A model generated the notes under the pieces. That model searched no databases, was not told the DNA's origin, and was given only the letters and a program-made list of their open reading frames with translations. Made by a program: the position numbers and the translations under genes. From the NCBI GenBank assembly GCA_016926625.1, contig JAFGOE010000083.1, forward strand, positions 24,569 to 88,568: a stretch of DNA of 64,000 bases. Direction: 5' to 3'. Shown in pieces: positions 33,013-35,545 of this stretch. This DNA is from Candidatus Zhuqueibacterota bacterium. GTDB taxonomy: Bacteria; Zhuqueibacterota; Zhuqueibacteria; Thermofontimicrobiales; Thiofontviventaceae. Numbering within the stretch: position 1 is the first letter of the stretch; every line of letters begins with the position of its first letter.

Positions 33013-34383
33013 TTATTCGGCAGCAGGGAAATCTTTCAACATGTCGTACGTTTTCTTCAGTTGCTCGTCCGCAAAGGTAGCGTCCTTCAGTTTGCCGGCT
33101 AAGAACGCGTCGTAACCAGCCATATCGAAATGTCCGTGTCCGCTGAGGTTGAAGAGAATGACCTTCTTTTCTCCAGCCAGTTTCGCCTTTTCGGCTTCGA
33201 TTATAGCAGCGCGGATAGCATGAGCAGACTCCGGAGCAGGGATTATAGCCTCTGTGCGTGCGAACAGTATGGCAGCGTCGAACACTTCGAGCTGATTTAA
33301 CGCCAGGGGTTCCATCAATTTTTCTTTCACCAGTTTGCTGATGATCGGAGACATCCCATGGTAACGGAGTCCTCCGGCATGTATAGGTGGTGGAACGAAA
33401 GAATGTCCAAGTGTATTCATAGCCAGCAGCGGAGTCAAGCCGGCGATGTCACCGTAATCATATGCATACGGTCCCTTGGTCAGCGTGGGACAGGTTTTAG
33501 GTTCCACTGCCACCATGCGGATCGACCTACCGTTAAATTTGTCAGGATAAAATGGGAAACAGAGTCCAGCGAAATTGCTGCCGCCGCCGACGCAGCCGAT
33601 GAGTATGTCCGGATAATCTCCTGCTATCTCCATCTGCTTCTTCGCCTCAAGGCCTACAATGGTCTGGTGCATGCAGACGTGGTTCAGCACGCTGCCCAGC
33701 GAATATTTAGTATCCTCGTTTTTCGCGGCGACCTCCACTGCTTCGCTGATAGCGATGCCGAGGCTTCCGGGAGAATCAGGATTTTCCTTCAGTACGGCTC
33801 GGCCAGATTCTGTTTCATCGCTCGGACTGGCGACGACGTTTGCTCCCCAGGCCTGGATCATCGAACGACGGTATGGTTTTTGTTGGAAGCTTACTTTTAC
33901 CATGAACACCTTGCACGCGATCCCAAAATAATTACATGCCAGGCTGAGAGCGCTTCCCCATTGACCCGCACCAGTCTCGGTGGATATCCGTTTGACACCT
34001 TCTTTCATATTAAAATAGGCCTGAGCAACTGCTGTGTTCGCCTTATGACTCCCGGCGGGGCTCACACCTTCGTATTTATAATAGATACGAGCGGGTGTAT
34101 CGAGTGCTTTTTCTAACCGCAGCGCTCTGTAGAGAGGGGATGGTCTCCAAATTTTGTATATGTCCAGGACCTGGTCAGGGATATCGATCCAGCGTTCAGG
34201 GCTCATTTCCTGCTTGATGAGCTCCATCGGGAATATGGGAGCCAGATCATCCGGACCGAGTGGCTTGTGAGTTACAGGATGCAGTGGCGGTTTCAATGGT
34301 GACGGCAGATCTACAAGAATATTATACCATTGTTTAGGTAAGTCTTTTTCATCAAGGAAAAATTTTGTTTGATTCATTTTCAT
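33013..34383 (-). CDS. trpB2: Tryptophan synthase beta chain 2 (TrpB2)
   Basis: [32 protein letters not shown] (PLP Lys), [16 protein letters not shown]; long TrpB2-type N-terminus. A second ATG 6 nt downstream has better SD spacing. Confidence 0.93.
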
Positions 34384-34424: not shown

Positions 34425-35279
34425 TTACTCATCAAATAAAAATGTGGGCTCATAATAGAAACGGATCGATTTATCCTGAACCTGCAGTGTAATCCTCTGT
34501 TGCAGCCAGTGATTTTTTTCATCTATCGGCGCGTCAAAACGAAGAATATCGAGAGGGACATTCAAACGAAGAGCGCGCTTGGGAAGAATGATCCGTGTGA
34601 TTCCGCTCGGTAGAAACATGTTCTTTTCGACGATCTGAATTAAGTCGTCCTTGGAGATCTTTTTAAAGCATACAACGGCGCAAAAATCCGGATAATGTCT
34701 GCGCAGATGGCTCAGGTTCGTGTAACTTACCCGATCCATATAGGAAAATCCTCGATAAACATCCGTGATCTCCTTCAATAATTTCACCTTCTCAAATAGG
34801 TCGCCTTCAGCCGTAATCTTATAAATTTGTCCGTCATGAAATTGAATCTTGGAGAGTAAATCGCCGTTATCGGTGAAATCGATCATATCCGATGATTCCT
34901 GCTCAATCGATATCTGAGGGATAAGGAATAGTTTATTAAGAAAGTCGGTCTTGGAAAATTTTTCTACGGCGTGATGCCAGTGCAAGAACAGCAGATCCTC
35001 ATCGAAGAGGTCGATTCGCTGCACCAGCACATCTTTAATTTCTAACTTTTTCAGTGCGGTAACGCGGTTGGCTCCGTCGAGGAGGATCAATCTACTGGTA
35101 CCGTTATAATAGCCGACAATCGGCGGGTTTTTTAAGCGAGCTTCTTTTTGAAGATAGATCATTAATGAGTTGGAGCGTTCATTATCGGGTTCCTCATGAA
35201 AAAGGATGTCATCAATCGGTACAATCTTTAAATCGGGGAGTTCTCCGATCTTTAAGCGCCTGTCGTCCTGCAACTGCAC
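34425..35279 (-). CDS. ParB/Srx-fold SbnI/SerK-like putative free-serine kinase (O-phosphoserine synthase)
   Basis: [70 protein letters not shown] colinear with SbnI (recalled sequence). AGGAGG SD supports GTG at 35279 rather than the ORF-track TTG. Confidence 0.75.
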
Positions 35280-35319
35280 AATTCCCTCCTGGGTCCGTTG
35301 GGTTGAGTACAAAATAAAA

Positions 35320-35344
35320 AACCCACTATAGTTACTAGTGGGTT
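35320..35344 (-). terminator. Attenuator terminator of the trp leader
   Basis: Minus strand AACCCACTA-gtaacta-TAGTGGGTT followed by TTTTATTTT; 9-bp stem, 7-nt loop. Confidence 0.88.
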
Positions 35345-35407
35345 GGATTTATGATTATTTATTTGTTTTTATGTTAATTGGGTCATGAGCAAATCCTCTC
35401 CACCAGT
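35334..35407 (-). promoter_or_regulatory. Antiterminator pairing of the trp leader
   Basis: Minus-strand ACTGGTGG-AGA-GGATTT (35391-35407) pairs with AAATCC-AAC-CCACTAGT (35334-35350): 6+8 bp around a 3x3 internal loop, sequestering the terminator 5' arm. Confidence 0.75.
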
Positions 35408-35484
35408 ATACTATTATACCACCACCACCACCAGACTAAGACGTTGGAATTGTTCAGAGAGAAATTTTGAGGAGTGTTGCTCAT
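35383..35484 (-). CDS. Tryptophan leader peptide MSNTPQNFSLNNSNVLVWWWWWYNSILVERICS
   Basis: 33-codon ORF with five consecutive TGG codons, between the promoter and the attenuator terminator; below the ORF-track length cut-off. Confidence 0.9.
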   Translation of the reverse strand: MSNTPQNFSLNNSNVLVWWWWWYNSILVERICS

Positions 35485-35516
35485 GTTCAAATAATTTCCG
35501 TAAGTAAATGTTAAAA

Positions 35517-35545
35517 AATATAAAGAATAAATATTAATTTGTCAA
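35517..35545 (-). promoter_or_regulatory. Sigma70-type promoter of the trp leader, TTGACA-N17-TATATT
   Basis: -35 at 35540-35545, -10 at 35517-35522, just after the end of the upstream response-regulator gene. Confidence 0.82.

Follow-up and report, generated by a model that had tools for sequence, protein, structure and literature searches.

The locus studied here lies on the minus strand of the window, the 64-kb stretch of DNA that was analysed as a whole. A sigma-70-type promoter begins directly past the stop codon of an upstream gene for an NtrC-type response regulator and is followed by a short ORF with a run of Trp codons, an intrinsic terminator, and two genes resembling serK and trpB2. 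The features are as follows.

35517..35545, minus strand: sigma-70-type promoter, TTGACA-N17-TATATT, matching 11 of 12 consensus positions
35383..35484, minus strand: leader peptide ORF of 33 codons, MSNTPQNFSLNNSNVLVWWWWWYNSILVERICS, with its ATG at 35484 and the last base of its stop codon at 35383; Trp-rich leaders are found in relatives
35419..35433, minus strand: run of five TGG (Trp) codons, proposed to be regulatory
35391..35407, minus strand: antiterminator 5′ strand (segment 2), ACTGGTGG-AGA-GGATTT
35336..35350, minus strand: segment 3, AAATCC plus the terminator 5′ arm AACCCACTA, the antiterminator partner
35320..35344, minus strand: intrinsic terminator hairpin (segments 3:4), AACCCACTA-7-TAGTGGGTT, followed by a T tract
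34425..35279, minus strand: serK-like gene (SbnI/SerK family of free-serine kinases), assigned by profile and structure homology
33013..34383, minus strand: trpB2 (TrpB-like PLP enzyme of the tryptophan synthase beta chain 2 type), assigned by profile and PDB matches

A sequence-only reading of this DNA had claimed the promoter, the 33-codon ORF with its five consecutive TGG codons, and a terminator with a 7-nt loop and U tract, and all three were found, running in the direction of transcription over 35545..35517, 35484..35383 and 35344..35320. The 8+6 bp antiterminator that it described is exact, with ACTGGTGG and GGATTT complementary to CCACTAGT and AAATCC. Within the antiterminator 5′ strand, ACTGGTGG occupies 35407..35400 and GGATTT 35396..35391, and the pairing extends to a GT in the terminator loop (35335..35334). 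Elsewhere in the 3.6-Mb genome, TGGTGGTGGTGG has one copy, within a glycine-rich coding stretch.

The combination of a Trp-rich short ORF and a terminator occurs a single time in the window and was absent from 20 random 64-kb sequences. This bears on the idea that a TGG repeat came by chance to lie beside the terminator of the upstream gene. TGG repeats can resemble microsatellites and the terminator might serve the upstream regulator gene, but the 34 leaders described below stand ahead of Trp genes and are complementary to the terminator arm, a conservation that refutes chance and leaves this explanation a negligible probability.

The downstream genes encode a putative serine kinase and TrpB2

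The serK-like gene has a probable GTG start at 35279, preceded by AGGAGG. Its product matches NF033589 (E 2.9e-16) and NF053625 (E 2.7e-10), with an NF033589 score of 59.6 bits that falls under the 350-bit equivalog cut-off. SbnI structures match it as well (E 1e-10, with the HE and DG..R motifs aligned), and the homology to SbnI and SerK, both free-serine kinases of ParB fold, spans the whole protein. The trpB2 product scores 742 bits against NF009057 (cut-off 366, E 1.3e-223) and matches TIGR01415 with E 1.1e-197, whereas the canonical trpB model gives it 150 bits against a cut-off of 392. In the PDB, it best matches beta chains of tryptophan synthase, and two of the three highest-ranking entries bear the name ‘beta chain 2’. 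These profile scores place the window’s TrpB in the TrpB2 rather than the TrpB1 clade.

Thermococcus SerK converts serine to O-phosphoserine (PMC5120207), which is a substrate of TrpB2 enzymes (Busch et al., 2014, as cited in PMC11917138). The pair therefore reads as a route from serine to O-phosphoserine and, with indole, on to tryptophan, and homology predicts a serine kinase and an O-phosphoserine-dependent tryptophan synthase for the two products. We found no TrpA, IGPS or canonical TrpB in the window’s genome (85% complete) or in G003, G012, G017 and G022 (95–97% complete). Most serK relatives likewise lack all three, while G005, G013 and G018 carry both systems. Since these proteins are missing from the window’s genome and most serK relatives, the pathway looks like indole-to-Trp salvage, and serK-trpB2 likely serves this role in Trp auxotrophs.

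Trp-rich leaders precede Trp genes across the phylum

SerK homologs were present in 17 of 82 genomes of the candidate phylum KSB1. The sequence-only reading had proposed that relatives be checked for loss of the Trp run or the hairpins; instead, a Trp-rich leader, an antiterminator and a terminator were present at every serK-trpB2 locus with enough upstream sequence (12/12), with Trp runs such as WWWW (G003, G009), WRWWWW (G002) and WLWW (G008). G010 and G023 stand outside the 12, as their contigs begin at the terminator or slightly ahead of it. A chorismate mutase gene stands between leader and serK in three genomes. Trp-rich leaders were also found in 8 genomes ahead of a trpB2 that stands alone and at 14 loci ahead of trpEGDCFBA. 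Because the scan that yielded the 34 leaders looked for Trp-rich ORFs, it selected for Trp content but not for antiterminators or for a location ahead of Trp genes.

No leader was found at the distant SerK homologs of G030, G080 and G081 (L019 in G030, L020 in G081 and L021 in G080; 34–35% identity), and the G030 serK does not adjoin trpB2. The regions upstream of trpB2 in G015, G025 and G029 likewise yielded none, in G015 also by eye.

Three further observations concern individual leaders. The trpB2 leader at L025 (G001), roughly 450 to 260 nt upstream of the gene, reads MPTINPTNHVHHNIHAHGWRMVSGIESRMKKS, with five His codons and one Trp codon, and retains an AGTGGG / AACCCACTAT antiterminator and a terminator; its sensed amino acid may possibly have switched from Trp to His. 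In G021, a tRNA-Trp gene (anticodon CCA; L062:5580-5653, minus strand) lies about 33 nt past the leader terminator and before trpE, and the attenuator may therefore control tRNA-Trp together with the trp operon. Several trpE leaders (L048-L050, L052, L054, L055, L060) have a second terminator-like hairpin downstream that shares sequence with the first, with AAGGCTGTG... or GGCGCTGTG... repeated, for example, which suggests tandem terminators.

Alternative RNA structures

The window’s antiterminator, ACUGGUGG-AGA-GGAUUU paired with AAAUCC-AAC-CCACUAGU, has a predicted energy of -19.7 kcal/mol (z -5.6), and none of 500 dinucleotide shuffles was as good; the terminator alone reaches -12.1 kcal/mol. 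The antiterminator strand starts about 10 nt past the final TGG and extends to a few nucleotides upstream of the stop codon. This same strand can alternatively pair with the 5′ region of the leader (AUGAGCAA..UCCUC), forming the classical 1:2 ‘no ribosome’ hairpin, which the sequence-only reading overlooked, just as it left the downstream genes unnamed. This hairpin is present in the window’s predicted fold, and its z-scores (-1.45 in the window, mean -1.6 over the 34 leaders) support it moderately, less than the antiterminator is supported.

Across the 34 leaders, the antiterminator had a mean z of -3.43 against shuffles, with p<=0.05 in 24 and p<=0.01 in 21, and a combined Stouffer value of -20.0 that overstates independence because the leaders are related. 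A terminator was identified for all 34, and the spacing from the last Trp codon to the antiterminator is usually 9–15 nt. The paired arms co-vary, as in ACUGGUGG/CCACUAGU (G000), GCAGUGGG/CCCACUGC (G018), GUGGUGGG/CCCACCAC (G012), CGUAGUGGG/CCCGCUACG (G026) and GAGGUGGGA/UCCCACCUC (G024). Among 17 spread-out leaders, the antiterminator strand tends to favour its own terminator arm, which ranked first in 9 and had a mean rank fraction of 0.09. Some trpE leaders have weak antiterminators, the antiterminator of G035 found no support against shuffles (p 0.43), and the trpE terminator of G038 was probably misassigned to a second, downstream hairpin.

When the full-length RNA was folded at equilibrium, the antiterminator was favoured in 6 of 34 leaders and the terminator in most, the window included, so the mechanism must be kinetic. 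The E. coli trp attenuator is a kinetic switch too. In a co-transcriptional test, in which the RNA was folded only as far as the terminator loop, a Trp-stalled ribosome allowed the antiterminator to form in 30 of 34 leaders. For the window, the predicted fold contains the antiterminator when the ribosome is stalled at the Trp codons, and leaves the terminator arm free when the ribosome is at the stop codon or absent; with no ribosome, the antiterminator strand is instead paired to the 5′ region of the leader.

A probable ribosome-mediated attenuator controlling serK-trpB2

By all available sequence tests, the locus is a ribosome-mediated Trp attenuator, and we consider it very probable (about 0.93) that it senses charged tRNA-Trp by transcription attenuation and controls the serK-trpB2 operon. 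The trp attenuation logic proposed from the window’s letters is supported by the predicted folding states, the relatives and the downstream Trp genes. When charged tRNA-Trp is scarce, the ribosome would stall within the five-Trp run, leaving the segment that begins about 10 nt past the last Trp codon available for pairing with AAAUCC and the 5′ arm of the terminator. This pairing would precede synthesis of the 3′ arm and allow readthrough into serK-trpB2. When Trp is abundant, a ribosome at the stop codon would mask the antiterminator strand and the terminator would form. If the leader is not translated, its 5′ part would pair with the antiterminator strand, making termination the default. These kinetics and the Trp response we infer; the sequence elements, alternative structures, conservation, covariation and gene content were observed.

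The leader lies only about 100 nt from serK, a distance that would also suit translational coupling or translation attenuation, in which a Trp stall exposes the serK ribosome-binding site and no transcription termination is involved. However, a strong intrinsic terminator with a T tract stands between the leader and serK, its 5′ arm pairs with the antiterminator, and the serK ribosome-binding site is downstream of it. Translational control is thus very unlikely.

Leader codons track operon content

Eight genomes (G012, G016, G017, G021, G022, G024, G030 and G031) have at least two Tyr codons in the Trp cluster of their leader, as in YWFWYWYYY and HWFWYWYYH, while the remaining 26 leaders have at most one each. 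All 8 Tyr-rich leaders, versus 0 of the 26 others, precede an operon that carries further aro genes alongside chorismate mutase and/or tyrA. The gene runs behind all 8 also contain aroA, in most cases joined by DAHP synthase, aroE and aroC. In the stretches read downstream of the other 26, some of them short because of contig ends (the G002 contig stops inside serK), we found no chorismate mutase, tyrA or aroA; DAHP synthase alone was downstream in 3. The 8 Tyr-rich genomes span four families, and the match therefore reflects few independent events. A peptide that senses the products of its operon would be expected to give such a pattern.

In G012, G017 and G022, the gene order is chorismate mutase, serK, trpB2, DAHP synthase, tyrA, aroA, aroE, aroC, so that serK-trpB2 occupies the place of trpEGDCFBA in relatives. 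The aromatic supraoperon loci that combine serK-trpB2 with a mixed W/F/Y leader are L083 and L101 (both G017), L098 (G012) and L099 (G022). Taken together, these patterns incline us, with some reserve, to a joint reading in which one attenuator plan has been reused phylum-wide for three kinds of Trp operon, its regulatory codons retuned to the operon’s products. On the same footing, serK-trpB2 would replace trpEGDCFBA, even in one family’s aromatic supraoperon, and the codons would be for Trp only or, in operons that include chorismate mutase and/or tyrA, for Trp, Phe and Tyr together. If retuning is true, a single mixed leader would respond to each of the three aromatic amino acids.

The leaders also bear on whether the terminator is governed by a riboswitch (the ‘trpB motif’, RF04312, for instance) that binds a metabolite or protein, while the ORF is incidental. 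RF04312 matched the same region at a sub-threshold 16.6 bits, and the motif is also found ahead of trpB in some bacteria (PMC11109978), but the match falls far under the 59-bit cut-off (E 6.5). The divergent leaders show no apparent conserved fold of the aptamer type and instead keep the Trp run, the antiterminator spacing and the complementarity of antiterminator and terminator. A riboswitch would, moreover, leave the tracking of operon content by codon content unexplained, and we regard it as highly improbable. Under the attenuator reading, the regulation of the locus is evidence that TrpB2 and a SerK-like kinase act as a unit for making tryptophan, in which the kinase provides the O-phosphoserine for TrpB2. 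The relatives form a natural series in which leader codons track operon content, offering a clean route to the study of changes in the amino acid sensed by attenuators.

Comparison with known systems

At the gathering cut-off, Rfam gave nothing in the window and no match in 25 loci (20 with serK or trpB2 leaders and 5 trp-operon loci), all but one of which came from relatives. The trpB motif RF04312 (PMC11109978) is likewise a terminator-linked cis element that is sometimes found before trpB, but it is a riboswitch candidate of Firmicutes and Fusobacteria to which the window has no real match. The uORFC-13-1 motif before aroF (PMC8632094) is, like the window’s leader, a uORF-based attenuator candidate for an aromatic pathway gene, but motif and gene are different, and it bears mainly on the mixed W/F/Y leaders of relatives. 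Naville and Gautheret (2010; PMC2965389) wrote that, until their own case in Firmicutes, they knew of demonstrated leader peptide systems from Proteobacteria and Actinobacteria alone. Our search of the open literature and a few subscription journals found no earlier description of attenuation in KSB1 or of a serK-trpB2 operon, and the locus would extend ribosome-mediated attenuation to an uncultured phylum with no earlier example found. The actinobacterial Trp leader attenuators are reported to show leader peptide attenuation outside Proteobacteria; they differ from the window in phylum and in the genes controlled.

The closest parallel in design is with E. coli trpL and the proteobacterial Trp_leader family, RF00513. 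Over its full length, the RF00513 model scores the window’s leader at 21.5 bits (E 0.032), below the gathering cut-off of 41, and the leader is therefore not placed in that Rfam family. Both have a short peptide with Trp codons (two in E. coli trpL, five in tandem in the window), mutually exclusive helices (2:3, 3:4 and, tentatively in the window, 1:2), an intrinsic terminator and Trp biosynthetic genes downstream. By these shared elements, the window’s leader is predicted to work like the members of Trp_leader though it scores below their threshold; unlike E. coli trpL, it would control serK-trpB2 rather than trpEDCBA.
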